From the NCBI GenBank assembly GCA_019310245.1, contig JAFDER010000005.1, positions 1-34,539 on the forward strand: a stretch of DNA of 34,539 nt. Direction: 5' to 3'. A model generated the notes under the pieces. That model saw nothing but the letters and a program-made list of their open reading frames with translations. It made no database searches and had not been told where the DNA came from. This document shows, piece after piece, positions 14,088-34,539 of the stretch. Position 1 is the stretch's first letter; the number at the start of each line of letters is the position of its first letter. Source of the DNA: Deltaproteobacteria bacterium (lineage in GTDB: Bacteria > Myxococcota_A > Polyangia > DRWM01). The translations under genes were made by a program, and so were the position numbers.

Positions 14088-17000
14088 CTACTCCTCACCG
14101 GGCAGGCATCGGGAGAACCGGCCCGACATGATGAACTCCACGAGTCTCGCCAGGGCGGGCGACTCCCGCAGGGCCTTCGCGGCCGCGTAGTCCGTGGCAA
14201 AAGGCTCGTCCATCGAGGAGACCTGCCAGACGAACTGCAGGGCGCCGGGGATGTCGCCGCACGCGAGCAGTGCCGCCGCGTCAGCGTACCCCGTGACGTC
14301 CGCGTAAAGGTTCGCGACGTCGATGAGCTGGTCTCCCGAGCACTCGAGCGCCGGCCCCAGGAGCTCCTCCCTGGCCTTGCGCGGGAAGTTCTTGCGCAGC
14401 GAGGTGGACAGCGCCGCGGTCTCGTCGGCCGAGACTCCCGAGACGAAGTACGAGGGCTCGAACTGCTGAACGAGCGCGACCCAGAGCGCCGGCAGGCTCG
14501 CCTCGGTCATGCTCACGAAGGGCACGAGGCCGGAGGCGGAGAGCCGTGAGCCCCAGGCGAACACGAAGCGCTTCTGTGCCTCGTCGAGCGACCTGTAGAG
14601 AGGCTCGCCGACCACGAGGAGGGGGGGGTTGTCGGACAGCACCGTCAGGCAGTTCGGGATGAGGTCCGTGGCGTGCACCTGGAGGGGCTTGATGCCGAAG
14701 TGGCGAGCGGCCTCCTCGACGAGCTTCGTGTCCGAGGAGAACCGCTTGGAGAGCCTCGTCGCACGGGAGATGCCGTACTGCTTCGAGTCGTAGCCCACGC
14801 TCTTGAGGATCACCTCGCGGAGCCTGGCCACGAGGACGCGGAAGCTCGGAGTGAAGGACTTGGGAGCGAGGTGGTCCTCGAGCCCGGGTTCATTCAGCCA
14901 GGATCCGGCGGACCACGTGATGCGGCCTCCTGCATCCTCGTAGGGCACCTGCTCCGTCGGGTGCAGGTCGAACAGCCCCTCGAGCAGGGTGCCGGCGATG
15001 CGAATGTCCTTGTCCACGCCGCTCTCCCGGGCGATCTGGAACACGGTGTGGTAGAGCGCGATGTTGCCCGGGTCCGACTTCGCGAAGACCTTCAGGTCTC
15101 CAAGCGACCTCTCGAGATGGAAAGACAGGGCGCGCTGGTCTCCCTGCTGCCTGTACAGGCGCACGAGCGAGACGACCGGCTCCGGCAGCCCGGGCACGAG
15201 CTTTCGCGCCATCTCGAACGTCTGCTCGGCGCGCCTCAGATCGCCGCCGCCGGTCTGCCACAACCGCCCCGCGACCACGAGCCACCGGGCCTTCTCCTCG
15301 TCTTCCTCGGAATCGTTGTACAGGAACTCGGCCATCTTCAGGCCCTTCTCCCAGGCGCCGGTCTTCTCGTACAGGGCGACGAGCTGCCGCGCGACGTCCA
15401 GATCCTGTTCGCCCGTCGCGAGCACCTTCTCGAAGCAGACGATCGCGCGCTCATCGTTCGGCACGTGGTCCACGTACATGCCGCCGAGCTTGCGGAACAC
15501 GTCCACGCTCTCCTCGTCGGTCATGGGAAGCATGGCCCGTTCCTGAAGGCTGCTGACGGCCTCCTCCCAGAGCCCGGTGCGCATGCAGAGGCCTGCCAGG
15601 TTCGAGAGGCTCATCGCATCCTCGGGTTGATCGGCGAGCACGCGCCTGAGCGACGCGATGGCCTCCTCCTGCCTGCCAGCCTGCTCGTAGACGCCCGCCA
15701 GGTCCCTGAGCAACTCGTGCCGGTCCTCCGCGCTCTCGACGGCGAGGATCCGCTCCTCGATCAGCGTGGCGACGCGGTCCCACTCTCCGAGCGAGCTGAA
15801 GTGATCCCGGAGGGTCCCGAAGCCGCGCGAGTCGGAGGGATCGAGCGACACGGCCTGCTCGAAGCACTGAACGGCCCAGCCTCCCTCCTTGAGCCTGTCA
15901 CGGTAGATCGTCCCGGCCCTGAGGAAATCCTCCACGCCGAAGGCGAGCTGCTTCGTCAGCGAGGCGGCCTGCCTGGCGAAGGCCGCAGCAGTGGCCCAGT
16001 CCTCGCGGGTGGTGGCCAGCTGCTCGACGAGAAGGGCCGCGATGGGGTTGGTCGGGAGCTTCTCCTGGGCCTCGCGGGCAAGGGACAGGGCGCGCTCCGG
16101 GTCCTTCTCGAAGAACATGAGCGCAAGGATCCACATGATGCCGCCCTGCTCGCGGTCCCCTTCCATGGCCCCTGCCATCTCGGAGAGGACCGACATGAGC
16201 ATCTCGCGGTCACCGGTCCTGCGCGCCTGGGCATCGGCCACGAGCAGGAGCGGCAGATCCTGGGCACGCGCCTCGAGCACGTCGCGCACGAGTGCATCGG
16301 CGTGAGGCCGGAGCGACTCGTCTCCTCGGCCCAGCGAGCGGACGGCCAGCCACGCGAACGCCGACGACTCGTCGCTGCCGGCCAGCTGTCTCGCCATGGC
16401 CTCGAGCGGCGCGGCAACCTCGTCCAGCCTGCCACGGGCAAGCAGCTCGGAGTACAGGAAGCGCAGGCAGAAGAGGCTGCCCACGTTCGGGATCTCGCGC
16501 AGGGACTCGGCCTCGGCCATCGCCATCGACGTCTCGCCCTTGAGGAAACCGTCGACGAAGACCATGCGCGAGAGGATTGGCTCCGAGTGCTCCCCCTCCG
16601 GAAGCCTCTTCATCGCGGCGATGAGAAGACCGGCCGCGTCGTCCCATCTGCCGGACAGCCAGGACGTGGCCTCGAGCAGGCCGTCCGCGGCAGCCTTCCA
16701 GCCGGATCCGGTGATCCTGTCGAGGGCAGAAGAGGTCTTGTGCGGGTCCGCGGCCGCCCAGCGGCGGGCCGCGTCGAACCACCAGCGATCCGCAGCCTCC
16801 CCCTCGAGACCGGAGGCGATCCGCTCGGTGGACTCGGCCGCAAGGGCCGGGAAGCCCTCGAGGCTGGCGATGAACAGGGGCAGGAACGTGTCGTCGCCCG
16901 ACGCTTCGAGATGCGACCTGAGATCCTGCTCCCCGAGCGACGAGCCAGCGCCGAGGCTCAGCAGGGCGACACGTTCGCCCTGGATGCGGCCCGACGCGCC

Positions 17001-18974
17001 ACCCGCCGATTCCACCCAGGCCTCCAGCTCGCGGCCGTACTCCTCGACGCGGCCGGCGGCGAGCAGCTCGCGCCTCAGCGCGGCGAACGCCAGCATGTGC
17101 GACGGCTCTTCCTCGAGGATGCCCCTCAAGAGGGCGATCCGCTCTCCCGGATCCTCGACGGTCCCCTCCCTGAGCGCGACGAACGCGGCCGGCGCCGCAG
17201 CGAGCCCTGCCTCGTCCGCAAGGTCCGTCTCGCCCTCCCGGAGCGCCGCACGCGTGAGCTCCACGGCCTGCTGCATCTCCTGGTCCTCGTTCCTGGAGAC
17301 GCGTGCTACCAGCAGCGCGGCCGCGAGATCGTTCTCCGCCAGGGCGAGGAGCTTGAGGATGACGGGCCAGAGGATCGCCTCGCCGCCTTTCCTGTCGAAC
17401 ACACGGTCGAGAACCCTCACCGCCTCCTCGGCTCGACCCTCCTCGAGCAGGGACAGGCCGACCTCAGTCACGAGCCAGTCGGTGCCGGGCCTCCCGATCG
17501 CCTCGTCGATCATGGCATGGAGCATCGAGGACCGCTCGGCCGCGTCGGCGCGCGAGAGCCTCAGGAAAAGGTCGAGGCTGACGGCATCCAGATCCGGGGC
17601 CTGCTCGAGCACGCCCTTGAGCGTGTCCACCGCACCGGCGTCATCCATCGCCGAGGCGCGGCGCCACGCCAGCACGGCGGCAAGCCTCCCAACGGGAAGG
17701 AGGGACTCGAGATCTCCGAGCGCGGAGTCGAGCGCGGGTCCGTCATCGAGAGAAGCGAGCAGCTGGAGCACCCTCTCGGGGATCCCCGCCGGCAGGGGTG
17801 CGAGCAGGCTCCGGGCCTCTTCCGGCCGCGCGAGCACCATGATCTCGAGCGCCGCCCTGAGAAACCCGTGGCCGCGCGCGAGCGGCAGCGCGGGGTCAAG
17901 CCCCGGCAGGTCGGAGATCCTGTCGGCCTCGGCCCACGCGCGATCCGCGGCATGGCGGCGCCACAGGGCGCAGATGGCCGCCTCCTCGTTGTCTCGCGCA
18001 TCGAGGGCCGCGGAATAGGCCGTGGCGGCCGCATCGCCGTCTCCAGAAACCTCTGCGAGCAGACCTGCCGCGGACTGCAGGGAGGAGACGAACAGCCCGT
18101 CCTGGGCGCTGGAGGCCACGGCCCGAGCCGCACGCGACGCCCCGCCCGCGTCGGCCTCGAGAAGCGAGGCCGAGAGCTTCACGAGGTCCGCGTACACGTC
18201 TCCGCTGCCCGGACCGATCCTGGAGAGACCTTCCGCGGCCTGCTTCTGATCGTCCAGTCTCCAGCCGCGAATCTCGAGATCGAGGCTCTCGAGCCGGTCG
18301 CGCACCACGGCATCCTGCGCGAGGGCCTTCTCCTCATCCAGGAGCTGACGGGCGGAATCCATGTCGCCGCTGGCCAGATGGCACCTGCGCAGTCCCTGGA
18401 TGGCGGGAAGGCAGCCGGGATCGAGCTCGTGCGCCGAGGTCAGGAGCTTGAGCGCCTCCTCGGCCTGGCCAAGCCTCACCTCGCAGATGCGGCCGGCCTC
18501 GGCGAGCAGCCGCGCGGCAAGGGACGGATCCTCCATCTCGCGCGCATCCTCGACCATCTGTCCGGCGCACCCCGACCACTGCTCCCGGGTCCAGAGCGCC
18601 TCGTCATCGAAGAAGCCGTCATCGCTCCCGAACGCGTCCTCGTCGAACTCCGCTCCGGACTCGATGACCACGTCATCGTCATCGTCGGAGGCATCCACCT
18701 CGACGCCGATGTCCTCCTCCGCAGGCAGCCCCTCGTAGACGTCCAGGTCCTCGTCATCGAAGTCCTCGATGACGAAGTCCTCGTCGTCCCCAACCTCGAT
18801 CTCGGTCTCGGGCAGATCGTCCCAGAGGCCCTCGTCGGCCTCGCCGTACTCGATCTCAACATCGTCCGACGAAGGGGCGCCTGCATCCACCACGGCGTCA
18901 CCGAGCTCCTGCTCGAGCAGGTCGCCGGAAACGTCGGAGGGTCCGCCCTTCACGATGTCGTCGTCGTGCTTCAA
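14088..18974 (-). CDS. Giant TPR protein with acidic N-terminus and degenerate M48-like C-terminal domain (1628 aa)
   Basis: No signal peptide, so probably cytoplasmic. Residues about 1-127 are extremely Asp/Glu-rich and low-complexity. From about 130 to 1350 the protein is a long array of TPR-like helical pairs; clear ones include AGVYEQAGRQEEAIASLRRVL and AIVCFEKVLATGEQDLDVAR. The last 250 residues differ. A hydrophobic strand and helix (NPPLLVVGEPLYRSLDEAQK, then RFVFAWGSRLSA near 1466) matches the layout of M48 peptidases, but the HExxH position is lost; YADAAALLACGDIPGALQFV (near 1561) would be the equivalent of the M48 AD-helix. The same tail occurs in the next gene upstream and in the TPR gene at the right edge. 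It follows the 1560-aa gene by 16 bp and abuts nadD. Likely a scaffold; function unknown. Confidence 0.85.
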   Translation of the reverse strand: MKHDDDIVKGGPSDVSGDLLEQELGDAVVDAGAPSSDDVEIEYGEADEGLWDDLPETEIEVGDDEDFVIEDFDDEDLDVYEGLPAEEDIGVEVDASDDDDDVVIESGAEFDEDAFGSDDGFFDDEALWTREQWSGCAGQMVEDAREMEDPSLAARLLAEAGRICEVRLGQAEEALKLLTSAHELDPGCLPAIQGLRRCHLASGDMDSARQLLDEEKALAQDAVVRDRLESLDLEIRGWRLDDQKQAAEGLSRIGPGSGDVYADLVKLSASLLEADAGGASRAARAVASSAQDGLFVSSLQSAAGLLAEVSGDGDAAATAYSAALDARDNEEAAICALWRRHAADRAWAEADRISDLPGLDPALPLARGHGFLRAALEIMVLARPEEARSLLAPLPAGIPERVLQLLASLDDGPALDSALGDLESLLPVGRLAAVLAWRRASAMDDAGAVDTLKGVLEQAPDLDAVSLDLFLRLSRADAAERSSMLHAMIDEAIGRPGTDWLVTEVGLSLLEEGRAEEAVRVLDRVFDRKGGEAILWPVILKLLALAENDLAAALLVARVSRNEDQEMQQAVELTRAALREGETDLADEAGLAAAPAAFVALREGTVEDPGERIALLRGILEEEPSHMLAFAALRRELLAAGRVEEYGRELEAWVESAGGASGRIQGERVALLSLGAGSSLGEQDLRSHLEASGDDTFLPLFIASLEGFPALAAESTERIASGLEGEAADRWWFDAARRWAAADPHKTSSALDRITGSGWKAAADGLLEATSWLSGRWDDAAGLLIAAMKRLPEGEHSEPILSRMVFVDGFLKGETSMAMAEAESLREIPNVGSLFCLRFLYSELLARGRLDEVAAPLEAMARQLAGSDESSAFAWLAVRSLGRGDESLRPHADALVRDVLEARAQDLPLLLVADAQARRTGDREMLMSVLSEMAGAMEGDREQGGIMWILALMFFEKDPERALSLAREAQEKLPTNPIAALLVEQLATTREDWATAAAFARQAASLTKQLAFGVEDFLRAGTIYRDRLKEGGWAVQCFEQAVSLDPSDSRGFGTLRDHFSSLGEWDRVATLIEERILAVESAEDRHELLRDLAGVYEQAGRQEEAIASLRRVLADQPEDAMSLSNLAGLCMRTGLWEEAVSSLQERAMLPMTDEESVDVFRKLGGMYVDHVPNDERAIVCFEKVLATGEQDLDVARQLVALYEKTGAWEKGLKMAEFLYNDSEEDEEKARWLVVAGRLWQTGGGDLRRAEQTFEMARKLVPGLPEPVVSLVRLYRQQGDQRALSFHLERSLGDLKVFAKSDPGNIALYHTVFQIARESGVDKDIRIAGTLLEGLFDLHPTEQVPYEDAGGRITWSAGSWLNEPGLEDHLAPKSFTPSFRVLVARLREVILKSVGYDSKQYGISRATRLSKRFSSDTKLVEEAARHFGIKPLQVHATDLIPNCLTVLSDNPPLLVVGEPLYRSLDEAQKRFVFAWGSRLSASGLVPFVSMTEASLPALWVALVQQFEPSYFVSGVSADETAALSTSLRKNFPRKAREELLGPALECSGDQLIDVANLYADVTGYADAAALLACGDIPGALQFVWQVSSMDEPFATDYAAAKALRESPALARLVEFIMSGRFSRCLPGEE

Positions 18975-18990
18975 GATCTCCCTTCCCGGT

Positions 18991-21900
18991 TCATCCGTCC
19001 AGTCCCAGGAGCTTTCTCAGCCTCGCAAAGCGCGAGGACAGCGCGAACTTCAATCCCTCCCTGAGGTGCGACTCCGCCTCGAAGAACTCCCGCGCATCTG
19101 CCATGTCGCCGTGTGGCCCGTCCTGTGCCAGCATGCCGGGCACCGAGGCCGACAGGAGGACCCCTGCCCTGAACGTTCCGACCCTCAGGCTGCGGAGGCC
19201 CTCCGTGATGGCAGCGGCGTCCGCGGCGGGAGCCACCTCGTGCAGGCTCGCAAGCCTCGACAGGGACCCGGAGTTCAGGACCTTGCCCAGCCTCTCCGCC
19301 AGCTCCTGCGTTCCAGGGGCGGGCTCGAGCATCGAGCCGTCCACGCCGGAGGCCATGATTCCCGCCTTGACGATCTCGGCGGCCCGATCTTCATCGAGCA
19401 TGGCGAGTACCGGGGCACGCAGGGACAGGTAGCCCAGGATCATGCCCACCCTGAAGAGCACGCCGTCGGGAACCGGGTGCGCGAGAGAACCGTCGACCAC
19501 GAGGGTGGCCGGGCCGACGAGCCTCACGCCCTCCTCGATTCCGGCGGCCTTCTCGAGCACCAGCTCGGGCACCCTGAACGCCTCGCCCCATCCCAGGATC
19601 TGCCTCGCGAGGGGCAGCTGGGGATCGAGGGGCTCGACATCGACGCGCGCGGGCAGCAGGCCGTCCGCCTCCAGCAGCTCGAGGCCGCCGCCCTCGCACA
19701 CGTTCGTCAGCACACCGGCCACGAGCGACCCCGGTAAGTCCGTCCCGAGAAGCTCCGCCAGCTCATCCTCGGACAGGGAGCCCTGCGGGATCTGCGGCAC
19801 CATGGGGGCCATGGAGGTCCTGGCCGGCGTGCGGGCCTCACCCTCGTCCGGGCTCCGGAGAAGCCCGAGGATCGTGTCGTAGTAGCGGGCCGCGCTCGCG
19901 TCCTTGAGCAGCCTGCTGGCCTTGACGAGGAACGTCAGGGCGTCGACCTGCAGGGGGTCTTCCTCGAGCATGGAATGCACGTTCTGCACGAACGGCCTCA
20001 GCTCCTCGGCGGACAGCCCCGGCGCACCGACCGAGGCGTTCCAGCGCATGAGCGCCTCATAGGCCACCGGATTCTCCGTGAGGATCTGTGCGTAGACCTT
20101 TGCGGCCTCATCGGGCTGCTTGGCGTAGCGCAGGAAGATCTCCGCCTTCTTGATCAGGAGCGCCTGCCGCTTGGCCTGGTCGTCGACGCCATCCGCAAGC
20201 TCCTGCTGCAGCGAGGCCGCCTCGTCCCAGGCCTCGAGCCGGAGCGCCAGGCGCATGGTCTTGTTGACGATGTTCTCGTCGGCCTCTCCCTGTCGCACGA
20301 GCTGCAGACAGTAACCGAGGCCTCGCCTGAGATCCTTCATCTTGGCAAGGCTCACGCTGATGCACTTGTGCAGGACCGCGACGCGGGCCGAGTGATCGTC
20401 CGTGTACTCGAGAAGCTGATCCGCGGCATCGAGGGCCTGATCGAACCTCTCGACCTGCAGCAGGAGGTCGAGCTTCATCTTCCACGCCGTGACCTTGTGG
20501 GGCTGCACGATCAGGAGATCGTCCAGCGCGAGGAGGGCTCCGTCGAAGTCCTTGGTCTTGCGCTTCAGATCGGCGAGCTTGAGCTGCAGGGCCTCGATCT
20601 CATCGAGTTCCATGGTGGATGCCACCCGCCTCTCGATGACGTCGATGACTCCCTGCATGTCGCCGCGCAGCTCCATGGCGCGCAGCAGGCCAGTGAACGA
20701 GCGAGGATCCGCCGGATCGAGCTCGGCCGCCTGCTGGTAGCACGAGGCCGCCTTCTCTGCGGCCGCCTGATCCTTGGAGTAGAGCTCGGCCGCCTTGACG
20801 AGCATCCTCACCTTGCGCTTCAGATCCGCGGCAAGGCCTGCGCGGGCCTCCATCGCCCGAGCCAGGGCCGCGCTGTCCTCGAGGCCCGGAGCCAGCCGCA
20901 GCACGCCCTCGATGGCAGCGGGATCCATGGGATCGGTATCCAGCGCCTCGACGAAGGCTCCGAGCGCGGCCTGGCTCTGTCCGGCCGACTCGGCGAGCTC
21001 CGCGAGCTCCGCGAAGGTCCGCGCCCGGTGCGCGGAGCCGGTCAGAGCGCGTGCCTCCTCGAGCGCTGCCGCGATTCCCGATTCCGTGAGGTCCATGGGG
21101 CCGTTGAGCACTGCCGTGGCAACGGCCGGTGAGAGGTTCGAGGGATCCGGAGCAGGGAGCCTGTCGTCCTCGTCCTGCTCGGGCCTCGACATGCCGTCAA
21201 GGAGTCCCAGCTGGATCTGGTGGTGCGCGATGATTCCCTTGATCCGGGGATCGCCGAACCAGAGGGCGAGCCTCCCGAGATCGCTCACGTACTCCTGGAG
21301 GTCACTGCTGGCCCGTGCAGCAGCCAGGCGCACGAGGAGGCTGACGGGATCGCCTCCGCGCACGCCGAGGATCTGCGTCGCCAGACCCGCAGCGGCCTCG
21401 GGATCTCCGTCGAGGACGAGGCACAGGAGCATGCGCACCCTGCGCCAAGCCACCTCGTAGGCAGAGTCCCCGACGTCGCCGGACAAAAGCACGTCGAGCG
21501 CGGGGGCGACGTCCTGCCAGCGGTCCGCCATCGGCCCGAGGAAGAGCATCGCAAAGAGAGCCTCGGCCCCCTCGGGATCGTCGGCCACGGCGGCCTCGAC
21601 GCTCTGCATCGCACCTGCGGTGTCCCCCTCCTCGAACAGCTTCCTCAGCCCGACCATGATGCGCAGGGAGGCCCGCGCCTCACCGGGCTCGAGCTCCTCG
21701 GAGAGCTCGCCGAGGACCTCGAGAATGCGCGCCGGTTCGCCCGCGCGCAGCGACAGATTCAACCGCGTGGCCGAGTCCAGTCCGAAGGCGGGGTCGAGCA
21801 GGGCCGAGGCCAGCCTGGCGGACGCCTCGTCACCGGGCTCCCCTCCCATGGCGAGCGAGGCGGCGGCACCGGCGATGTGCGGCTCGAGCCCGGGCGATCC

Positions 21901-23673
21901 GGCCTCGATCACCGACGCGAGCCAGCGGACGGCCCCCTGCGCCGTCTCGGGCCGCGAGGCCAGACGGAGCATCCGGTGGACGTCGAACGGACCGGGCGAC
22001 TGCGCGGGCACGACGTCCCGTCCCGGCTCTGAGCCGCACACGAACGCCACGTCGCCATCGAGACCTGGAACCTCGGCTCCGGTCCCGCGCACGTGCGTGA
22101 GCAACGCCCGCACCCACGGCTCCGCGCTCTCGCCGCGGCCCCAGACGAGGAGCTTCGTCGCACCGGCGAGTGCGGCGAACATCTGGGCTGCACCGAAGTC
22201 CACTCCGGGTGCGCCCATGATCTCGGCGAGTTCGTCCGATCCCGGACGCTCGAACGCATGGAGCCTGATCAGGTCCACGAGGGCGGCATCCGCCCTCGGT
22301 CCACCCTGGGCGGTCCACGCGCTCAGGGCTTTCTGCCGCAGGAAGCTGTTGCCGCTCGTGCGCGCGGCCGCGTAGGCGAGATCGGCGAGACCGCCTTCCA
22401 GCGTCTCGATCTCGGCCAGGCTGCGCGCAACGGCCTCCACGTCCTCGCCCGTCGACCAGCGCGATTCGAGGTTGATGAACGTGCTGAGCAGATCGGTCGG
22501 ATCCGCGGAGTCGTCCCCGCTGCCCTCGCCGCCGAGCGATTCGAGCGCATCGAGGACGCGCGAGTCGAATCCAAGGCCGCGAATCTGGCCGATGAGACCT
22601 TTGACATCATCGAACCGCCCTCCTGCCAGAGCGGCGCGCGCCCTGTTCCAGAGGTTCCACGCCGCGTCGACCTCACCGTCCGTGGATGCGGTCGCCTCGA
22701 GGTACCGCTCCAGATCCTCGATGCGACCGGCCGCCATGTAGTGGTCGACGGCGATCCCGTCCAGGCCGGAATGCAGGATGACACCGGGATCCAGGGCGTC
22801 GAGAATCGTGTTCATCCTCTCGACGACGTCGCTCTCCCTCGTGATGGAGGGATCTCCGCCGCCCAGCTGCCAGGCCAGCGCGGCAAGAAGGGCCGCGGCC
22901 TGCGGTGCATCGCCCGGGGAGGCGAGGATGAAGCGACTCGAGAGAGCATCCTCGGATGCCGACTCGACGCCGACGAGCCTGCGCGCCTCGGACAGGACCA
23001 TCCGGATCGTGCGTGCTCGATCACCCGTGGCAAGCCCCAGCCTCACGGTCTCGCTGAACCTGGGAAAGACATCGGCAGGATCGTCATGGACCTCGTCGAG
23101 CAGATGCCAGACGCGGTCCACCTCGCCCTGCTCGACGAAATGACGTGCCAGCTCGAGCCTGACCTGCGAGCCGACGAGAGGCTGGACCGTCGCGTCCTTC
23201 CACCGCTCGAGCACCGTGAGTCGAGCCTCGGGATCGTCCCGCGTGAAGTGCTCCCATTCCTCGAGGACGAGGGCCAGCACGCGCTCGGGATGGCTCTCGC
23301 GGACCTTCTCGAGAAGTCCCAGGCGATCGAGCCCCTCGACAGGCGAGGCCTCGAGCGACTCCGCGAGGAACAGCGACAGCAGGCTGGCCATCCTGCCTTC
23401 CGCCTTGTCCAGCGCGACATGGTAGAGCCTGGTAAGCCTCTGGTGGCTCGACGCGCCGAGCAGGATCGAGCCCGCCGCGAGCACGGGAAGCTGGAAGTCG
23501 TCCTCGAGCTTCAGCGACAGCAGGTACTGCCGCATGGCCTCGGCGTTCTCACCGCCCAGGAACTCGAGGATCTGTCCCGCCTGGTACAGCAGGACGGACC
23601 TCATCTCGTCGGGATAGTCACCGCTCAGGACTTCCTTGAGCAAGCGATCACGAATGGAGGTGACGTCAACCAC
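18991..23673 (-). CDS. Giant TPR protein, paralogue with the same C-terminal domain (1560 aa)
   Basis: The start is GTG at 23673 with a modest AGGT upstream. There is no signal peptide or acidic leader. Helical repeats fill about residues 10-1300; clear TPR units lie around 940-1290 (ALGAFVEALDTDPMDPAAIE, ASCYQQAAELDPADPRSFTG, GALLALDDLLIVQPHKVTAW). The C-terminal domain (about 1330-1560) has GPATLVVDGSLAHPVPDGVL, a helix FRVGMILGYLSLRAPVLAML where an M48 active-site helix would be, and FRAGVLLSASVPGMLAQ near 1505. These match the tails of the 1628-aa gene and of the TPR gene at the right edge, and no zinc ligands remain. First gene of the TPR-TPR-nadD unit and divergent from the cyclic-nucleotide-binding protein. 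Function not known; a large assembly platform is plausible (inference). Confidence 0.85.
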   Translation of the reverse strand: MVDVTSIRDRLLKEVLSGDYPDEMRSVLLYQAGQILEFLGGENAEAMRQYLLSLKLEDDFQLPVLAAGSILLGASSHQRLTRLYHVALDKAEGRMASLLSLFLAESLEASPVEGLDRLGLLEKVRESHPERVLALVLEEWEHFTRDDPEARLTVLERWKDATVQPLVGSQVRLELARHFVEQGEVDRVWHLLDEVHDDPADVFPRFSETVRLGLATGDRARTIRMVLSEARRLVGVESASEDALSSRFILASPGDAPQAAALLAALAWQLGGGDPSITRESDVVERMNTILDALDPGVILHSGLDGIAVDHYMAAGRIEDLERYLEATASTDGEVDAAWNLWNRARAALAGGRFDDVKGLIGQIRGLGFDSRVLDALESLGGEGSGDDSADPTDLLSTFINLESRWSTGEDVEAVARSLAEIETLEGGLADLAYAAARTSGNSFLRQKALSAWTAQGGPRADAALVDLIRLHAFERPGSDELAEIMGAPGVDFGAAQMFAALAGATKLLVWGRGESAEPWVRALLTHVRGTGAEVPGLDGDVAFVCGSEPGRDVVPAQSPGPFDVHRMLRLASRPETAQGAVRWLASVIEAGSPGLEPHIAGAAASLAMGGEPGDEASARLASALLDPAFGLDSATRLNLSLRAGEPARILEVLGELSEELEPGEARASLRIMVGLRKLFEEGDTAGAMQSVEAAVADDPEGAEALFAMLFLGPMADRWQDVAPALDVLLSGDVGDSAYEVAWRRVRMLLCLVLDGDPEAAAGLATQILGVRGGDPVSLLVRLAAARASSDLQEYVSDLGRLALWFGDPRIKGIIAHHQIQLGLLDGMSRPEQDEDDRLPAPDPSNLSPAVATAVLNGPMDLTESGIAAALEEARALTGSAHRARTFAELAELAESAGQSQAALGAFVEALDTDPMDPAAIEGVLRLAPGLEDSAALARAMEARAGLAADLKRKVRMLVKAAELYSKDQAAAEKAASCYQQAAELDPADPRSFTGLLRAMELRGDMQGVIDVIERRVASTMELDEIEALQLKLADLKRKTKDFDGALLALDDLLIVQPHKVTAWKMKLDLLLQVERFDQALDAADQLLEYTDDHSARVAVLHKCISVSLAKMKDLRRGLGYCLQLVRQGEADENIVNKTMRLALRLEAWDEAASLQQELADGVDDQAKRQALLIKKAEIFLRYAKQPDEAAKVYAQILTENPVAYEALMRWNASVGAPGLSAEELRPFVQNVHSMLEEDPLQVDALTFLVKASRLLKDASAARYYDTILGLLRSPDEGEARTPARTSMAPMVPQIPQGSLSEDELAELLGTDLPGSLVAGVLTNVCEGGGLELLEADGLLPARVDVEPLDPQLPLARQILGWGEAFRVPELVLEKAAGIEEGVRLVGPATLVVDGSLAHPVPDGVLFRVGMILGYLSLRAPVLAMLDEDRAAEIVKAGIMASGVDGSMLEPAPGTQELAERLGKVLNSGSLSRLASLHEVAPAADAAAITEGLRSLRVGTFRAGVLLSASVPGMLAQDGPHGDMADAREFFEAESHLREGLKFALSSRFARLRKLLGLDG

Positions 23674-23707
23674 GCTAGACCTACAAAATACCTCGAAAAG
23701 TGAACCA

Positions 23708-23736
23708 ATACTTGTTTACTCGGATGACTTTGTCAA
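23708..23736 (-). promoter_or_regulatory. Promoter of the giant TPR genes
   Basis: On the minus strand a perfect TTGACA (23736-23731), 17 nt, then a weak AAGTAT (23713-23708). The start site would lie about 30 nt before the GTG at 23673. Confidence 0.5.
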
Positions 23737-23790
23737 CTCTCGCCGTGTCGAATCGAGAGTATCGCCCGCGCACGTCTTGTACATGGAATG

Positions 23791-23819
23791 TTGACCCGAA
23801 CTCCCGAACAGAATACAAA
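23791..23819 (+). promoter_or_regulatory. Promoter of the cyclic-nucleotide-domain gene
   Basis: TTGACC (23791-23796), 17 nt, then TACAAA (23814-23819). Transcription would begin near 23826, which rules out the upstream in-frame start at 23700 and leaves a very short leader before the ATG at 23832. Confidence 0.55.
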
Positions 23820-23831
23820 CATGGACTGGAC

Positions 23832-25166
23832 ATGACACGGACAATGAAGGACATCCTCGGCCTTGCCGGGGAATTCAAGGCGAAGCGGGAATGGGTCAGG
23901 GCGCTGAAGATCTACCGCCTCGTCCTCGAGGCGGTGCCTCAGGACTACGAGACCCGTCTGAACATCGGGGATGCCCTCATGGCGATGGGGGAGGAGGAGC
24001 TGGCCCGAAAGGTCTGGCATGAGACGTTCCGCTACGACATGCGGATGGGGCAGCCCGTCCAGGCCATCGTGGCGGCCAAGCGGCTCATGGCCCAGGATCG
24101 GGTGCACGAGGCGTTGCTCAAGGAGCTCGCTGCCTTCTACCACGCGGAGTCCGAGCACGTGGGCAGAACGTCCAGGCTCGCGCCCGTCGACCTGGAGGTC
24201 CCGGTCAGGGACGACGTCGACACCGATTACGCCATCGAGCCCGGTGCTCTGGCACGTCAATCCGCAGAGCTCGTCCTGTCCATCGGCCAGCAGGCCAGCT
24301 TCCCGCAAAAGGTCCCGCCGCTTCCCATCCTGTCGGACCTGCCGCCGGACCTGTTCTGCGAGCTGCTCGCAACCGTGGACCTGCGCAGGCTCGACCCGGG
24401 CGTGGCGTTCCTCAAGGAAGGGGAGAACGCAGAGACGTTCTACATGCTCGCCAGGGGCAAGGTCCGCATCTTCAAGTCCGATCCCATGGGTCGACGCGTG
24501 GAGCTGGCCCAGCTCGGCGAGGGGTCCATCCTCGGGGAGATGGCGCTGCTGACGGCTTCCCCGAGGACGGCCAGCGTCGAGACGATCGAGGACTCGGACC
24601 TGCTCGAGTTCTCGAAGGCGGATCTGACCCGGATCAGCGAGGAGTCGATCCTGGTCGAGGCGGCGCTCGACAGGTTCACGCGTGAGAGGCTCGTCTCGAA
24701 CCTGCTCGCCACGAACCCGCTCTTCGCACCGTTCGATCGCAAGCAGCGCTACGAGCTCCTGAGCAGGTTCACCGTGCACGAGGTGGTGCCCAGCACGCTG
24801 CTCGTCAAGCAGGGAAGCCGCGGCCAGGGCCTGTTCATCATCCTCTACGGCGAGGTCGACGTCACGAAGCTCGACGGCGACGAGGAGGTCCTGCTGGCCA
24901 CCCTGAAGGCGGGGGACGTCTTCGGCGAGATCTCGCTCATCAAGGATCAGCCGACCACGGCAACGGTCAAGTCCGTGCGTCACTCGACCATGCTCTTCCT
25001 TCCGAGGGAGTACTTCACGAGCCTGGTCACGGCCATCCCCGAGCTCCGCGAGTACTTCGACAACCTGAGCGAGCAGCGACTCACCCAGACCGCGAAGGCG
25101 CTCGAGGAGGCCCAGTACCTCGAGAGCGTGGACATCGTCTTCGACGACGAGCGCATCATGATCTGA
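23832..25166 (+). CDS. TPR protein with two cyclic-nucleotide-binding domains (444 aa)
   Basis: The start is ATG at 23832 (or ATG 23844, four codons later). The N-terminal 80 residues are TPR-like (EWVRALKIYRLVLEAVPQDY, LNIGDALMAMGEEELARKVW). A first cyclic-nucleotide-binding domain covers about 165-265, with the phosphate-binding cassette GEMALLTASPRTASV carrying the conserved Glu and Arg. A second domain covers about 297-400, with GEISLIKDQPTTATV in which the Arg is replaced by Thr, so ligand binding there is doubtful. There is no helix-turn-helix, so it is not a CRP-type regulator, and no kinase or other output domain is visible. Divergent from the giant TPR genes with facing promoters, suggesting a linked role in signalling to the TPR scaffold (inference). 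Confidence 0.9.
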   Translation: MTRTMKDILGLAGEFKAKREWVRALKIYRLVLEAVPQDYETRLNIGDALMAMGEEELARKVWHETFRYDMRMGQPVQAIVAAKRLMAQDRVHEALLKELAAFYHAESEHVGRTSRLAPVDLEVPVRDDVDTDYAIEPGALARQSAELVLSIGQQASFPQKVPPLPILSDLPPDLFCELLATVDLRRLDPGVAFLKEGENAETFYMLARGKVRIFKSDPMGRRVELAQLGEGSILGEMALLTASPRTASVETIEDSDLLEFSKADLTRISEESILVEAALDRFTRERLVSNLLATNPLFAPFDRKQRYELLSRFTVHEVVPSTLLVKQGSRGQGLFIILYGEVDVTKLDGDEEVLLATLKAGDVFGEISLIKDQPTTATVKSVRHSTMLFLPREYFTSLVTAIPELREYFDNLSEQRLTQTAKALEEAQYLESVDIVFDDERIMI

Positions 25167-25167
25167 C

Positions 25168-28244: not shown

Positions 28245-28264
28245 GGCGGCTCCTCTCGTGAGCA

Positions 28265-28352
28265 TGGTGCGAGGAGGGGGACTTGAACCCCCATGGAGAA
28301 AAACTCCACTAGGCCCTCAACCTAGCGCGTCTACCAGTTCCGCCATCCTCGC
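28265..28352 (-). tRNA. tRNA-Leu (anticodon GAG), CCA encoded
   Basis: Read on the minus strand, GCGAGGA (28352-28346) pairs with TCCTCGC (28275-28269), then discriminator A and an encoded CCA (28267-28265). The anticodon stem CTAGG/CCTAG encloses TTGAGGG, giving anticodon GAG for CUC and CUU codons. A D-arm with TGGTAGACGC and a T-arm with GGTTCAAGTCC are present, and the long variable arm fits class II leucine tRNA. The aminotransferase ATG follows 20 nt after the CCA. Confidence 0.95.
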
Positions 28353-28361
28353 CCTGGACTG

Positions 28362-28390
28362 TTTATCAGCCGCTTTGACGACCAAGTCAA
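28362..28390 (-). promoter_or_regulatory. Promoter of tRNA-Leu and aminotransferase
   Basis: On the minus strand TTGACT (28390-28385), 17 nt, then GATAAA (28367-28362). The start site falls three or so bases before the tRNA 5' end. Confidence 0.6.
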
Positions 28391-28437
28391 GTACGGCGGC
28401 GCCGGCAAGTTGACAAGCGGTCCGAGAAGGTTCATGT

Positions 28438-28995: not shown

Positions 28996-29558
28996 CCGAC
29001 CAGGACGAACTCCACGGCGCGCAGGACCGAGGAGACGAGAACGAGCACGGCCATCGATGCCGCGAACGCCTTGATGCGCACGTGCGCGGGAACGCCGACC
29101 GCCGCGTCGAGAGCGTGGTAATAAAGATACCCCGTGTACACGGCTCCCATGAGGAACCAGAGGAAACCGAGCACCGGAACCGGGACGAAGGCCAGGACAG
29201 ATGACATCCACAGGCCCGCCGAGGAGTACAGTGCCGCCACCTCGCCCATGGCCGGGCGCACGGCCCCGACCCTCCGGGCCATGAATCCCGAGGCCGCCGC
29301 GAAGGAGGCAACCGTTGCCCCGTCGACGACGAGCCTGCTCGCGACGGCGAGGGCCACGCTGTTCTCACCCGCCACCAGGAGCGCCCCGGCCAGGCTGAAG
29401 ACGAGCGACACCGCGAGCCCGATGACCGTGAAGGGCAGGACCGCCTCGCCGAGCGAGGGCCTCTCCGCGACGATGAGGTTCCACTCGTCCTCCGGGCCGA
29501 TCACCAGATGCAGGTAGCGCCTGAGCGCGTCGACGAGCGGCTGCAGTACCATCGGCAC
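28992..29558 (-). CDS. Yip1-like integral membrane protein (188 aa)
   Basis: The protein has an N-terminal amphipathic region (LRRYLHLVIGPEDEWNLIVAE) followed by about five membrane helices, a layout typical of the Yip1 family (five helices, N-terminal PxxxWxxI-like segment). Visible helices include VLPFTVIGLAVSLVFSLAGA, LGFLWFLMGAVYTGYLYYHA and FAASMAVLVLVSSVLRAV. The start is GTG at 29558 (AGGA nearby) or ATG at 29552. Bacterial Yip1 proteins have no established role. Its last four bases overlap the TlpA-like gene on the other strand. Confidence 0.75.
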   Translation of the reverse strand: MPMVLQPLVDALRRYLHLVIGPEDEWNLIVAERPSLGEAVLPFTVIGLAVSLVFSLAGALLVAGENSVALAVASRLVVDGATVASFAAASGFMARRVGAVRPAMGEVAALYSSAGLWMSSVLAFVPVPVLGFLWFLMGAVYTGYLYYHALDAAVGVPAHVRIKAFAASMAVLVLVSSVLRAVEFVLVG

Positions 29559-29658
29559 GAGATCCTAGCCCCACCACCGGTGCGGGTCAATCCTCCATAA
29601 CGTGCGGAATCCGCTTTCAAATCGTCGTGAGGCCGACCCGTATCGCACGCCGCCCGGG

Positions 29659-29686
29659 TTGACTCTCGCGGCCGTTCCCATACAAT
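29659..29686 (+). promoter_or_regulatory. Promoter of the cdnL operon
   Basis: TTGACT (29659-29664), 16 nt, then TACAAT (29681-29686, five of six consensus bases). The leader of about 90 nt before cdnL contains a GC-rich patch (CCCCCGGGGGG near 29706-29716). Confidence 0.65.
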
Positions 29687-29784
29687 ACATGAAACGCAGT
29701 TTTCGCCCCCGGGGGGTCCCTGGATAGATGTCCATCAAGGGGGATGATCGAGCGAACCGCTGCTGAGACTCGAGGTGGCGACGG

Positions 29785-30315
29785 ATGCGAGGGGTCTACA
29801 CCATGGAGGGAATGTTCAACCTAGGAGACAACGTTGTCTGCCCAGCCCACGGCGTCGGCGAGATCGTGAGCATCGAGCGGATCAACATCTCTGGACAGGA
29901 ACAGGAGTTCTACATCATCTCCATCCAGGAGAGCGGGATGCGCGTCTTCGTGCCAACCCAGGGCACGGACACACTCGGCCTGAGGAACGTGATCTCCGAG
30001 ACCGAGGCGCGCAAGGTCTTCCGCATCCTGCGATCCAAGGAGGTGGCAGTCAACGACCGGCCCTGGAGCAAGCGCTGCAAGCGATACTCGCAGATGCTCA
30101 AAACCGGCTCTCCGTTCGACGTGGCCCAAGTTCTGCGCGATCTACTTCGACTCAAGGGAGGCAAGGAGCTCAGCTTCGCGGAGCGGCGGCTCCTGAACAC
30201 GGCACGCACACTCCTCGTCAAAGAACTCGCCCTCGCGCGTTCCACCACCGAGACCCGCATCGCACAGCAGATCGACCGCATCTTCCGGATCAAGCCGACC
30301 AGGGCCACTGCCTGA
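29785..30315 (+). CDS. CdnL/CarD-family RNA polymerase-binding regulator (176 aa)
   Basis: The N-terminal Tudor-like domain is seen in FNLGDNVVCPAHGVGEIVSI and the EFYIISIQESGMRVFVPTQG strand pair, which in this family binds the RNA polymerase beta subunit. A C-terminal helical domain (about 85-170) contains PWSKRCKRYSQMLKTGSPFD, VAQVLRDLLRLKGGKELSFA and ERRLLNTARTLLVKELALA, and would contact promoter DNA. The size and layout are those of CdnL, not of the larger myxobacterial CarD with an HMGA tail. ATG 29785 or ATG 29803 could be the start; both have a purine-rich site. The stop lies at the ribosome-binding site of the next gene (AAGGAGG), making an operon. CdnL stabilises open complexes at stable-RNA and housekeeping promoters. 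Confidence 0.93.
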   Translation: MRGVYTMEGMFNLGDNVVCPAHGVGEIVSIERINISGQEQEFYIISIQESGMRVFVPTQGTDTLGLRNVISETEARKVFRILRSKEVAVNDRPWSKRCKRYSQMLKTGSPFDVAQVLRDLLRLKGGKELSFAERRLLNTARTLLVKELALARSTTETRIAQQIDRIFRIKPTRATA

Positions 30316-30326
30316 AGGAGGCCGTG

Positions 30327-30947
30327 GTGAGACAGCACGCGTTTCTTCGCGCTCCGGTCCGTACCGCGATCCCGGCCATCGTCACCGCACTGGTGCTGAC
30401 GGCGACCACGCCGGCGGATTCGACCATCTTGCTCAAGATGAGCCTGGAGAGGATGGCCCAGGACGCCGTGATGGTGGTGCAGGGGCACGTGGCATGGGAC
30501 TACTCGGTCCGTCCGGATCCCACGGAGCCCATCTTCACGTACTCCGGACTCGAGGTCAGCGGATGCGTGGCGGGCGAGTGTCCGGAGACCGTCATCCTGA
30601 AGCACGAGGGAGGCACGGTGGGCGAGTTGACGATCTTCATCCCGGGCATGCCGAAATTCACCCCGGGCGACGAGGTCCTGCTGTTCCTCGAACCCGATCC
30701 CAACGGCGAGAAGGACGCGTTCTACACCGTGGGCATGGTCCAGGGCTACTTCAAGATCGTCACGGACCCCCAGAGCGGCGTGAAGACGGCCCTCCAGCAG
30801 CTCTTCGGCGTCACGCTCGCCTCACCGGGCGGGGACGGCGTGATCGCACCGGTCAAGAGTCCGGGACCCCTCGAGGCGAACCTGCAGGATCTCGCCAAGA
30901 GGATCCGCGAGGCCTGGAAGAGCAAGAAGAAGGAAGGTGGCAAGTGA
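30327..30947 (+). CDS. Exported protein of unknown function, partner of the protease gene (206 aa)
   Basis: The start is GTG at 30327 (or GTG 30324), with a perfect AAGGAGG at 30315-30321. A signal peptide covers about residues 1-32. The mature part contains LERMAQDAVMVVQGHVAWDY, then IFTYSGLEVSGCVAGECPET, LTIFIPGMPKFTPGDEVLLF and VGMVQGYFKIVTDPQSG. This pattern (exported all-beta domain with a GMPxFxPGDEVLLFL core) recurs, from memory, next to matrixin-like proteases in myxobacteria, but no named family is claimed. The C-terminus is Lys-rich. Its stop overlaps the next start by four bases (GTGA), so it is coupled to the metalloprotease and may be its inhibitor, chaperone or cofactor; this is inference. 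Confidence 0.85.
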   Translation: MRQHAFLRAPVRTAIPAIVTALVLTATTPADSTILLKMSLERMAQDAVMVVQGHVAWDYSVRPDPTEPIFTYSGLEVSGCVAGECPETVILKHEGGTVGELTIFIPGMPKFTPGDEVLLFLEPDPNGEKDAFYTVGMVQGYFKIVTDPQSGVKTALQQLFGVTLASPGGDGVIAPVKSPGPLEANLQDLAKRIREAWKSKKKEGGK

Positions 30948-33055
30948 GGCGCACGACGCACGCCATCCTCCTCGCCCTCGCGATCGCGATCATCCCGGCC
31001 TCGGCCATGGCGTGGATCTCGATGGACGGCAACTCGTCTCCGCCGCACACGGTGTGGTCGGCGGTGCCGGTCTCCTGGGGCATGCACCAGGACGGCAGCC
31101 TGGACCTCGGGGCCGATGCCAGCGAGACCGTCCTGCTCGACTCGTTCGCCTCATGGTCCGAGCCCACGTGCACATCCTGGGCCACGACGTACACCGGCAG
31201 GACGGGCAGCCGCCCCAACGGAGGCGACGGGCAGAACATCCAGGGCTGGGTGGAGGTTGGATGGCGCTACGGCTCGGGCGCCATCGGCGTGTGCTCCGTC
31301 TCCTTCTGGGGCGGAGGCACCATCGGCGAGGCGGACATCGCGTACAACGGCGTCAACTTCACCTGGAACCTGACGGGCGGTGGCGGATCGGCCGTCGACA
31401 CGCAGTCCATCGCGACCCACGAGCAGGGACACTTCCTCGGGCTGGGGGACCTCTACGGCTCGTCGTGCACCGGGGACCCGACCATGTGCGGCGTGTACTC
31501 GGGCGGCACGGGCGCCCGGACCCTCGCCTCGGACGACATCAACGGCGTGTGCGCCCTCTACCCCTCGGGCACCGGAGGCTGCGTCACGGACGACGACTGC
31601 TCCGCTGGACACCACTGCGAGGACGGCGTGTGCGTGCCCGACGCGGTGGCAGGCGAGCCGTGCGATCCGTGCACGGAGCACGAGCAGTGCGGCGGAACGG
31701 ACGACCTGTGCCTGGGAGGATTCCCCGACGGAGGCATGTACTGCGGAGGCGAGTGCAGCGTGCCCGCGGACTGCCCCGCCGGCTTCGACTGCATCGAGAT
31801 CGGCGGCGCGCCCGTCAACCAGTGCGTCCCGTCGGACTTCGACTGCTCCTCGATCACGCCCGAGTGCGAGACGGACGACGACTGTCCGGACGGCGAGATC
31901 TGCGACGGCGGCCGGTGCGTCGAAGCGACCCCCGACTGCGTCACGGACGACGACTGCCCGGTCGGAGAGGTCTGCCGCGACGGCGAGTGCATCCCGGACC
32001 CGTCGCCTCACCTGCCGTGGTGCTCCGAGTGCACGGGCCACGACGAGTGCGGCGGCGCGGACGACCTGTGCCTCGGTGGTTTCATCGACGGCACGTCGCG
32101 CTGCGGCATCTCCTGCGACAGCGTGGGCGGAAACTGCGGCGAGGGCAACACGTGCTACGGCTTCGACGACCTGCCCGACCAGTGCATCCCGTCGTCCATG
32201 GACTGCTCGCCTGACTGCACCACGGACGGGGACTGCCCGCCCGGCCAGCACTGCGTGGACGGCCACTGCACGAACGTCTGCGACCCGAACGATCCCACGT
32301 CCTGCCCCGACGGCTGGTACTGCCGGTTCACGTCGTGCGCGACGGGCGTGTGCGAGCCCGCTCCCGACGGCCCGGGAACAAAGGCCATCGGCGCGCGCTG
32401 CGCGACCGATCTCGAGTGCGACAGCCTGAGATGCCAGCCCATGATCGACGGATCGTACTGCGCGATCTCGTGCGACTACATACTGGGCGGCGGCGCCTGT
32501 CCGAGCCCCACGGCATGCCAGCCGCTCGAGAGGGGCCTGTGCGGTGTCTGCTCCTGCTCGCGAGGCAAGCTGGGCGACCCGTGCCTCTCGAACAGCCAGT
32601 GCCAGAACGGCGAGTGCACGCTGGTGGGCGGGATGAACCTGTGCACCATCGACTGCACCGGAACCGGCGTCGGCTGCCCGCACAACTTCACGTGCACGCC
32701 GCAGGGCGACGGTTCCACCTCCGTCTGCATCCCCGACGGGACGGCGGTCGGCGGGCCGTGCGAGGCGGACGACGAATGTGCCGGCCGGCTGTGCATCGAG
32801 AGGGGACCCTCGATGGTCTGCTCGCGCACCTGCGGCGGCGAGGACGCTCGGGACTGTTCGTGCCCCGCGGGCCACGCGTGCACGGAGGTGGCCGACGGCG
32901 TCAACGCCTGCGTGCTCTCGAGCCTCATCATGGTCTCCGGATGCGGCTGCACGCTGGCCGGGGCTGGAGGAAAGGGCGGAGAACTTGCGCTCCTGATCGC
33001 TTTGATCCTGGGGGGTTACGGCATCTCCCGCCGGCGCCGTAAAAACACGTCTTGA
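30944..33055 (+). CDS. Secreted matrixin-like metalloprotease with Cys-rich repeats and MYXO-CTERM tail (703 aa)
   Basis: The start is GTG at 30944, overlapping the upstream stop, with AAGGAAGG in front. The signal peptide ends around ASAMA. The protease domain (about 24-207) carries the zinc site His159-Glu160-x2-His163-x2-Gly-x2-Asp169 (HEQGHFLGLGD), followed by TMCGVYSGG (Met-turn) and RTLASDDINGVCALYP. In usual matrixins the third ligand is His; here it is Asp. Residues about 213-640 are Cys-rich: four short modules of C-x5-C-x5-C-x4-C (for example CVTDDDCSAGHHCEDGVC) and two related longer modules starting near CTEHEQCGG and CTGHDECGG. The end has a Cys-Gly-Cys pair, a membrane helix (LALLIALILGGYG) and an Arg-rich tail (SRRRRK), the MYXO-CTERM sorting signal for surface attachment. 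Confidence 0.92.
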   Translation: MRRTTHAILLALAIAIIPASAMAWISMDGNSSPPHTVWSAVPVSWGMHQDGSLDLGADASETVLLDSFASWSEPTCTSWATTYTGRTGSRPNGGDGQNIQGWVEVGWRYGSGAIGVCSVSFWGGGTIGEADIAYNGVNFTWNLTGGGGSAVDTQSIATHEQGHFLGLGDLYGSSCTGDPTMCGVYSGGTGARTLASDDINGVCALYPSGTGGCVTDDDCSAGHHCEDGVCVPDAVAGEPCDPCTEHEQCGGTDDLCLGGFPDGGMYCGGECSVPADCPAGFDCIEIGGAPVNQCVPSDFDCSSITPECETDDDCPDGEICDGGRCVEATPDCVTDDDCPVGEVCRDGECIPDPSPHLPWCSECTGHDECGGADDLCLGGFIDGTSRCGISCDSVGGNCGEGNTCYGFDDLPDQCIPSSMDCSPDCTTDGDCPPGQHCVDGHCTNVCDPNDPTSCPDGWYCRFTSCATGVCEPAPDGPGTKAIGARCATDLECDSLRCQPMIDGSYCAISCDYILGGGACPSPTACQPLERGLCGVCSCSRGKLGDPCLSNSQCQNGECTLVGGMNLCTIDCTGTGVGCPHNFTCTPQGDGSTSVCIPDGTAVGGPCEADDECAGRLCIERGPSMVCSRTCGGEDARDCSCPAGHACTEVADGVNACVLSSLIMVSGCGCTLAGAGGKGGELALLIALILGGYGISRRRRKNTS

Positions 33056-33080
33056 TCAAACGTCGATAATAAACGATAAG
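33052..33080 (+). promoter_or_regulatory. Promoter of the PC4-like gene
   Basis: TTGATC (33052-33057), which overlaps the protease stop codon, 17 nt, then GATAAG (33075-33080). The region is unusually AT-rich for this window. The box sits inside the palindrome TTGATCAA. Confidence 0.5.
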
Positions 33081-33148
33081 TATTGATCGCGAGATCGAGC
33101 CAGTTCGGCTCTATCCGACCACGAAAAGAGGGATCCCAGGAGGCAATC

Positions 33149-33397
33149 ATGGCCGAGGACAAGGTTGTCCACAGCTTCAAGCGCACGCCGACCGAGGAGG
33201 TCAGGGCAACGGTTCGGGAGTACCGGGGCCGCACGTACATCGATCTCCGAATCTACTACATGGACAACTCAGGTGAGTGGAGGCCCACTCGAAAGGGCAT
33301 CGCGCTGAGCACCGAGTTCCTCACCGACCTTCGCACCTGCGTGAACAAGTTCGACGAGGAGCTCAAGGCACTGGAGCAGGCCGAAGGGGACGACTAG
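33149..33397 (+). CDS. PC4/p15-like single-stranded DNA-binding protein (82 aa)
   Basis: The ATG at 33149 has AGGAGG six bases upstream; an in-frame upstream ORF start (33083) is rejected because it has no such site. After a short charged N-terminus, EEVRATVREYRGRTYIDLRI, YYMDNSGEWRPTRKGIALST and EFLTDLRTCVNKF form the four-strand-plus-helix PC4 fold (transcriptional coactivator p15 family, also bacterial YdbC). These dimers bind single-stranded DNA, and in bacteria may act in transcription or DNA repair. It forms its own transcription unit after the protease gene. Basic residues in the strands and Trp/Tyr in the YYMDNSGEW loop fit nucleic-acid contact. Confidence 0.88.
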   Translation: MAEDKVVHSFKRTPTEEVRATVREYRGRTYIDLRIYYMDNSGEWRPTRKGIALSTEFLTDLRTCVNKFDEELKALEQAEGDD

Positions 33398-33445
33398 GAG
33401 CGCCGGGTCCGACCTCCCTCCCTTTCGACCACAGCTGCAAGGGCG

Positions 33446-34539
33446 TCACTCGGTTTCTATCGCCATCCCAAGCTTCTGCCGCAGGACGAAGTAGTCCTCG
33501 CTCACGGAGAAGAGGTTCATCTCCGTGAGTCGGTCCTTGGCGGGGGTGACCCAGGAGTCGACCGTGAGGCTCTTGACCGCCTTCGAGGCCACCTTCATCT
33601 CGCTGCACAGGAGCAGTCCGGCACGGTCCGCCGTGTGATCCACGGCCGCGGCCCACTGCTTGAGGTCGATGCCGCCCGTCGCTGACTCCAGGAAGGTCTG
33701 CACGCGGTTGGTGAGGAGCTCGATGTCGCTCGAACCGAGACCCTTCTTCAGGATGCCCACGGCATCGACCACCTTGCCCTTGAACTCTGCTGGCACCGGG
33801 AAGCTGGGAATCACGGCGCTGATCGACGCCAGGATCCACGTGCTCAGGGCCGTGCCCGTCTGGAGGAACACGCGGAGCTGGAAGCCGGGAAGATAGTAGG
33901 CCATGTGACGGGCCGCCAGGAAGGCCAGCTCCTGTGCGTCCTCTTCCTCGAGCGCAGCTCCTCCCACGGCGATGGCCGGCGGCCACGTGGGTACGAACAC
34001 GAGCCCCAGGCCCTTGTCCTCGTTCATGAGGTAGAAGTCCGGGACCTCCAGACCGAGCACGCCGGCGGCATAGTGCGTGGTGCGGGGCAGGAGCTCGTGG
34101 GTGCCTTCCGGATCGACCTTGTTCTCGTCGTTGAGGTTCTCGGCCACCGCGCTCTTGCCCTTTGCCTTGAGCACGGCCGGCTCGATGACGCGGAAGATCC
34201 CCGTGATCTTGTCGTCCAGCGCCGGGTGGAAGAGATAGCGGTTCCACATGTCCTCGCTGACACGGTCGAAGGCGGCGGCAGGCTCGTCGGACGCGTACGC
34301 CTCGTAGAGCTCCATCTCCTCGTCGTCGGCCATGTTCAGCGAGTGGAGCGTGTCGGCAAGGCACCAGGCCTCGTCGTACTTCGCCTTCTTGCGGTAGATC
34401 CGGCACAGGCTGCGGTACGAGTCCGTCCTGAACGGGTTGACCTGCAGGATCTCCCGGTTCAGCCTGATGGCCTTCTCGCTGTACTTCAGGTCGTCACCGT
34501 AGAGGTCCGCCATCACCTCCTGCCAGTTGCGCTGGGTCG
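33446..34539 (-). CDS. Large TPR protein, N-terminus cut by window edge, with degenerate M48-like domain
   Basis: The frame runs to the right edge without a stop (residues TQRNWQE precede the first in-frame GTG at 34516), so the true start lies outside. The visible N-terminal part has TPR helices (KYSEKAIRLNREILQVNPFR, SLCRIYRKKAKYDEAWCLAD). The C-terminal 250 residues contain VFVPTWPPAIAVGGAALEEE, a helix DAQELAFLAARHMAYYLPGF where an M48 peptidase would have HExxH, and VDHTADRAGLLLCSEMKVAS where M48 proteins have their Glu-x-x-Ala-Asp helix. Both sets of zinc ligands are incomplete. The same tail is found at the ends of the two giant TPR proteins at 14088-23673. Convergent with the PC4-like gene (48 bp apart). 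Function unknown. Confidence 0.85.
   Translation of the reverse strand, partial: TQRNWQEVMADLYGDDLKYSEKAIRLNREILQVNPFRTDSYRSLCRIYRKKAKYDEAWCLADTLHSLNMADDEEMELYEAYASDEPAAAFDRVSEDMWNRYLFHPALDDKITGIFRVIEPAVLKAKGKSAVAENLNDENKVDPEGTHELLPRTTHYAAGVLGLEVPDFYLMNEDKGLGLVFVPTWPPAIAVGGAALEEEDAQELAFLAARHMAYYLPGFQLRVFLQTGTALSTWILASISAVIPSFPVPAEFKGKVVDAVGILKKGLGSSDIELLTNRVQTFLESATGGIDLKQWAAAVDHTADRAGLLLCSEMKVASKAVKSLTVDSWVTPAKDRLTEMNLFSVSEDYFVLRQKLGMAIETE

Follow-up and report, generated by a model that had tools for sequence, protein, structure and literature searches.

The window analysed here, a stretch of 34,539 nucleotides, is an entire contig (C592) of a 70%-complete genome that comprises 4.58 Mb in 679 contigs, and three genes on its minus strand encode the large proteins that we call P0001, P0002 and P0003. 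P0002 (1560 aa; 18991..23673, minus strand) and P0001 (1628 aa; 14088..18974, minus strand) are adjacent, with 16 bases between them, and form the first and second gene, respectively, of a conserved tandem pair. Directly downstream of P0001 lies a nadD-like gene (13521..14087, minus strand), likewise found downstream in the loci L074, L076, L077 and L080. A gene divergent to the pair (23700-25163, plus strand) encodes a 488-aa protein with a TPR-like N-terminus and cyclic-nucleotide-binding domains. P0003 (33446..34537, minus strand) is cut by the contig end, so that only its last 363 aa fall inside the window. The 55 bp that close the window also open contig C409 (locus L003), where the frame is continuous, and the full-length protein, joined by this 55-bp overlap alone, would reach ~1778 aa with its start (MNPLFETLK) on C409. 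A PC4 domain (transcriptional coactivator p15) is present in a small protein encoded convergently to P0003 (33083-33394, plus strand).

The long N-terminal part of these proteins is built of TPR repeats, as befits TPR scaffolds. Pfam recognised TPRs in P0001 (TPR_19, 1.4e-13; TPR_2, 3.1e-11) and, more weakly, in P0002, where TPR_11 was at its cut-off, and it gave nothing else convincing for either protein. The 363-aa fragment of P0003 had no Pfam match, TPR included; the part of P0003 encoded on C409, on the other hand, resembles the repeats of P0002. A hydropathy scan showed neither a signal peptide nor a convincing membrane segment in P0001, P0002 or P0003.

A preliminary description of this DNA had proposed that the three proteins end in the same kind of domain, with the appearance of an inactive M48 peptidase, on the basis of three short motifs: a strand, a helix at the place of HExxH and a further helix with an A-D or R-A-G signature. 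Single-sequence BLASTP among the three C-terminal domains detected no similarity, and for this reason relatives were gathered from Myxococcota genomes and family profiles were built. Of 141 genomes, 71 had P0003-type ends and 32 had P0001-type ends, while a sequence search of the same 141 genomes with the C-terminus of P0002 alone returned only its own genome; relatives of P0002 were taken by synteny, each being the gene that immediately precedes a P0001-type gene in another genome. Profile-profile comparisons revealed that the three C-termini are one homologous domain of ~290 aa, since the P0003 family matched the P0001 family at 99.2% (E 1.5e-19), and the P0002 family matched those of P0001 and P0003 at 99.7% (E 5.4e-26) and 99.6% (E 4.4e-25), respectively. 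The single sequence of P0002 gave weak matches to the profiles of the other two families. With a combined profile (A5), in which each of the three proteins is itself one row, the domain was delimited at 14109..14963 (minus strand) in P0001 (E 3.2e-63), at 18997..19848 (minus strand) in P0002 (E 1.6e-36), which is the most diverged copy, and at 33458..34330 (minus strand) in P0003 (E 1.6e-86). The three motif triplets of the preliminary description lie in register in these alignments, and the shared domain is indeed found where it had been placed. AlphaFold models of the domain in P0003 (pLDDT 93.4, pTM 0.91) and P0002 (pLDDT 85.0, pTM 0.86) have an identical order of elements: a helix, three short strands, the helix at the HExxH place, further helices, the long helix at the Glu place and closing helices. 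A difference of folds, which had been named beforehand as an outcome against the idea, was thus not observed between these two models.

The relationship with M48 metallopeptidases was addressed with 26 genuine M48 domains gathered from related genomes with PF01435, and with a myxobacterial M48 subgroup (including L135, L128 and L137) in which the Glu helix reads AELTADRAGLL. The profile of the P0003 family matched this subgroup in hhalign at 96.7% (E 3.6e-10), and that of the P0001 family reached E 1.3e-5 against the subgroup and 3.1e-6 against all 26 M48 domains, whereas column-shuffled and reversed versions of the subgroup stayed at E values from 0.06 to 0.7. The P0002 family compared directly with M48 was not convincing (E 0.007), and its link to M48 therefore runs via the P0001 and P0003 families. 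A profile of all classes recovered the M48 domains of L135 (51 bits, E 1.8e-16), L128 (48 bits) and L137 (40 bits), with E values calculated for small test sets, and each of these matches came in two blocks, the first one covering the strands and the HExxH helix and the second one the Glu helix. In the reverse search, the profile of the M48 subgroup found 103 of 171 distinct copies of the domain at E <= 0.01, the best reversed control being at 0.31 (again for small test sets). In this register, RHxxY of the domain falls under HExxH of the enzymes, and the D of VDLTADRAGLL under the E of AELTADRAGLL. M48 enzymes of the subgroup and the domain thus have in common the order of blocks (helix, strands, HExxH-type helix and Glu-type helix) as well as a Glu-type helix of the form (E/D)-x-T-A-D-R-A-G-L-L. 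The domain differs from M48 in its extra C-terminal helices, in its place, which in every copy seen is the end of a longer protein, and in lacking any match to PF01435, which was absent from P0001, P0002 and P0003 and from 27 members of the P0003 family.

Structural comparisons were less informative. Foldseek against the PDB gave no match at E <= 1e-3 for the P0003 or the P0002 model, all E values being above 0.09, and the fold may consequently have drifted far from M48. The top ranks below threshold were nevertheless rich in zincins for P0003 (MATCAP, ZMPSTE24, Ste24, jannalysin, selecase and BlaR1) and included M32 carboxypeptidases, the M48 protein 3c37 and BepA for P0002. A helical domain unrelated to M48, with similar short motifs arisen by chance, would account for these poor E values and for the absence of Pfam and PDB sequence matches, but we consider it very improbable in the face of M48 profile matches in two separate conserved blocks with the right order, of controls that fail, and of weak fold matches dominated by zincins in P0003 and including M32 enzymes, 3c37 and BepA in P0002. 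Altogether, descent of the domain from an M48 metallopeptidase is well supported by the sequence profiles, and it is compatible with, though unproven by, the predicted structures, so that of the M48 relation initially suggested the sequence half has been strengthened while the structural half remains weak.

A detailed view of the former active site, obtained from an alignment of the 171 distinct copies, shows that HExxH is not present at the aligned columns in any of them (0/171), both histidines and the catalytic E having been lost from the site in all 171. The first H has become R in 119 of the 171, the E has become H in 74 and the second H has become Y in 95. In 23 copies the third ligand E persists, and in 97 a D replaces it; the D four residues after it persists in 104, and 167 of 171 copies retain the R of ADRAG. 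An ancestor with TPRs and an intact HExxH was sought among the 171 copies and none appeared; the one HExxH string encountered, in L105, lies outside the aligned site. For the proteins of the window, the profile-profile alignments place FVFAWGSRLSA (14535..14567, minus strand) of P0001 and FRVGMILGYLS (19423..19455, minus strand) of P0002 in the helix at the HExxH place, and YADAAALLACGD (14253..14288, minus strand) and FRAGVLLSASVP (19138..19173, minus strand), respectively, in the helix of the third zinc ligand. The corresponding helices of P0003 are LAFLAARHMAYY (33893..33928, minus strand), with RHMAY on HExxH, and DHTADRAGLLLCSE (33599..33640, minus strand), with D on the ligand E and an almost invariant R. 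The zinc-ligand histidines are accordingly missing in all three proteins, as first noticed; for the third ligand the right helix had been pointed out, although the residue at the ligand position in VDHTADRAG of P0003 is the D (D300) and not the T. From the lost zinc site we infer a domain that is probably catalytically dead and zinc-free.

The motifs found at the former site differ among subfamilies. In the class comprising P0003 and the GltI-type proteins (see below) the new residues show a conservation of their own (R/K in 102, H in 74, Y in 93 and D/E in 117 of 121 copies), which hints at a remodelled pocket instead of plain decay. Such conservation is also what would be expected if the domain were still an enzyme with a new chemistry, the RHxxY...D set having taken over from the zinc site, yet this set is absent as a conserved feature from the P0001 and P0002 classes and we know of no catalytic precedent for it, which makes this the most improbable of the explanations considered here. 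Across all classes, the most conserved features are the R of DRAG and a motif of the tail, S-x-x-Y-x-x-x-R; the strongest conservation is thus seen in the DRAG helix and the C-terminal tail and not in the edge strand, a point against the docking cap discussed below.

The domain invariably occupies the extreme C-terminus: in the copies listed, 0-15 residues separate its end from the stop, and in no copy do more than 30 residues follow it. The combined profile found it in at least 162 of 284 Myxococcota genomes, and in at least 114 of the 193 of good quality, including every listed genome of the class or order of the window, usually in several copies. Counts per genome among the 162 carriers go from 1 to 9 and are lower bounds, since about eight candidates were scored per genome; the 70%-complete genome of the window has six copies, three of them inside the window. 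These per-genome counts bear out the early impression of an expanded family of pseudopeptidases behind TPRs. In a narrower scan of contigs, the best 80 records were all from Myxococcota or from a 'delta proteobacterium'. The neighbours of the ~1800-aa P0003 type, taken from 80 loci, offered no clear functional link, the conserved ones being mainly genes on the opposite strand present in at most one quarter of the loci. A different architecture occurs in L103 (1470-5018, minus strand), where a response regulator and DUF4388 are joined to TPRs and the pseudo-M48 domain in a protein of 1183 aa, which could be a signalling version.

The tandem of P0002-type and P0001-type genes is kept, with both domains recognised, in 14 of 19 fetched loci, three further loci having an adjacent frame of 1482-1483 aa at the same place, and in several loci nadD follows downstream. 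The conservation of this row of genes (P0002-type, P0001-type and nadD) in other Myxococcota suggests a complex of two scaffolds. One could then imagine the domain as a means of self-association by which scaffolds pair, for instance P0001 with P0002 or GltI with itself, as the conserved neighbours both bear it and the genomes contain several paralogues; GltI and the P0003 type, however, stand alone, and we regard this explanation as rather improbable.

The largest carriers of the domain point to the gliding machinery of myxobacteria. Among the matches listed, 65 genomes have both a carrier longer than 3000 aa and a gene of the gltG family (NF033760), and in 56 of these the two share a contig and lie no more than 22 kb apart; in L227 gltC-, gltE- and gltG-like genes precede the giant gene that bears the domain. 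None of the GltG matches was above the curated NCBIfam cut-off, and the name GltI is thus assigned by synteny and size. In Myxococcus xanthus, whose own GltI was outside our set of sequences, the giant TPR protein of the cluster is GltI/AgmK (MXAN_4863, 4132 aa), for which the published table gives only TPRs (PMC3169522), and GltI has been described as an intracellular scaffold linking the AglQ motor to MreB (PMC13104615). By synteny and size, our results show that the domain caps GltI-type proteins, that is, TPR proteins of more than 3000 aa beside gltG, which share this C-terminal domain in 56 genomes. The proteins of the window (1560, 1628 and ~1778 aa) are shorter paralogues and not GltI, and the window yielded no gltG-type gene. 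Contigs C35 and C288 are among those of this genome with listed gltG-like genes, and the presence of at least two such genes suggests that the genome probably has more than one Glt-type machine. On the minus strand of the window (1776-5614) there is also a 781-aa TPR protein with a weak GltC-like match (60 bits versus a cut-off of 450), adjoining two small proteins with signal-peptide-like N-termini, which may represent a periplasmic Glt/Nfs-like set.

As to what the domain does, we think that P0001, P0002 and P0003 are, with fair probability, cytoplasmic TPR scaffolds ending in a dead, M48-derived docking cap. A docking cap in the cytoplasm is the likeliest role given the lack of signal peptides and membrane segments, and protein binding or scaffolding, one half of the function originally guessed, is the best inference at present. 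The other half, a module for cell-surface signals, is not borne out, as signal peptides and convincing membrane segments are missing from all three proteins and GltI has been reported to be a scaffold inside the cell (PMC13104615). In such a scaffold, the TPR superhelix would span distance, and the dead peptidase that terminates it would close the superhelix and hold a partner protein, possibly via the remnant of the M48 substrate groove and the edge strand, plus the family-specific helical tail with S-x-x-Y-x-x-x-R. Partners would differ among paralogues: GltI would act in the gliding machine, the P0002-P0001 tandem would form a single two-scaffold complex, and the ~1800-aa P0003 type would work elsewhere. 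A comparable arrangement is known in BepA (YfgC) of Escherichia coli, which combines an M48-type domain and TPRs as the proteins of the window do, and whose edge strand binds the client LptD and is needed both for promotion of assembly and for proteolysis (PMC8423444). BepA, however, is active and periplasmic and has its TPRs behind the peptidase, whereas the domain of the window is dead, probably cytoplasmic and placed after the TPRs.

A simpler role would be that of a bare structural end-cap, shielding the last TPR helices from solvent and aggregation with no specific binding. The domain is always last and directly behind the repeats, the motifs of its former site vary between subfamilies, and a purely structural cap would look similar. 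Against this stand its size of ~290 aa, when the usual capping helices of TPRs are much smaller, the tail motif kept in all classes, and the residues that each subfamily conserves at the former site (R/K in 102, H in 74 and Y in 93 of the 121 copies of the P0003/GltI class), so that we hold a mere end-cap to be unlikely, if less so than self-association.

In a broader and more tentative reading of the docking cap, to which we give slightly less than even chances, an M48 peptidase would have lost its site, become fixed on giant TPR scaffolds and multiplied into phylum-wide docking modules with remodelled sites (RHxxY...D in the GltI class), GltI attaching to its partner via a dead protease. Other inactive homologues of metallopeptidases have likewise lost the catalytic site and presumably act by binding or, often, by scaffolding complexes (PMC11266112), according to a review without any mention of M48. 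Searches for the domain in Pfam, NCBIfam and PDB sequences gave nothing meaningful, and in the literature consulted we found no paper on it or on M48 pseudopeptidases with TPRs in myxobacteria. The domain would be a pseudopeptidase from a clan outside that review, with a lineage-wide tie to giant scaffolds, and an extensive example, across the phylum, of an M48 peptidase that has become a non-enzymatic module, whereas the review names none from M48. A defined and testable domain is thereby assigned to GltI, which is very large and among the poorly understood parts of the gliding machine, and also to several further giant TPR proteins per genome that were previously seen as repeats only.

Two other regions of the window deserve a mention. 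A 683-aa protein (11397-13445, minus strand), possibly a surface protein, has an N-terminus like that of lipoproteins and contains Asp-rich DxDGD repeats as well as a VWA-like part. At 6019-8234 (plus strand) an ECF sigma factor precedes what is probably an anti-sigma protein, which has a long linker rich in Lys and ends in a TPR-like part.
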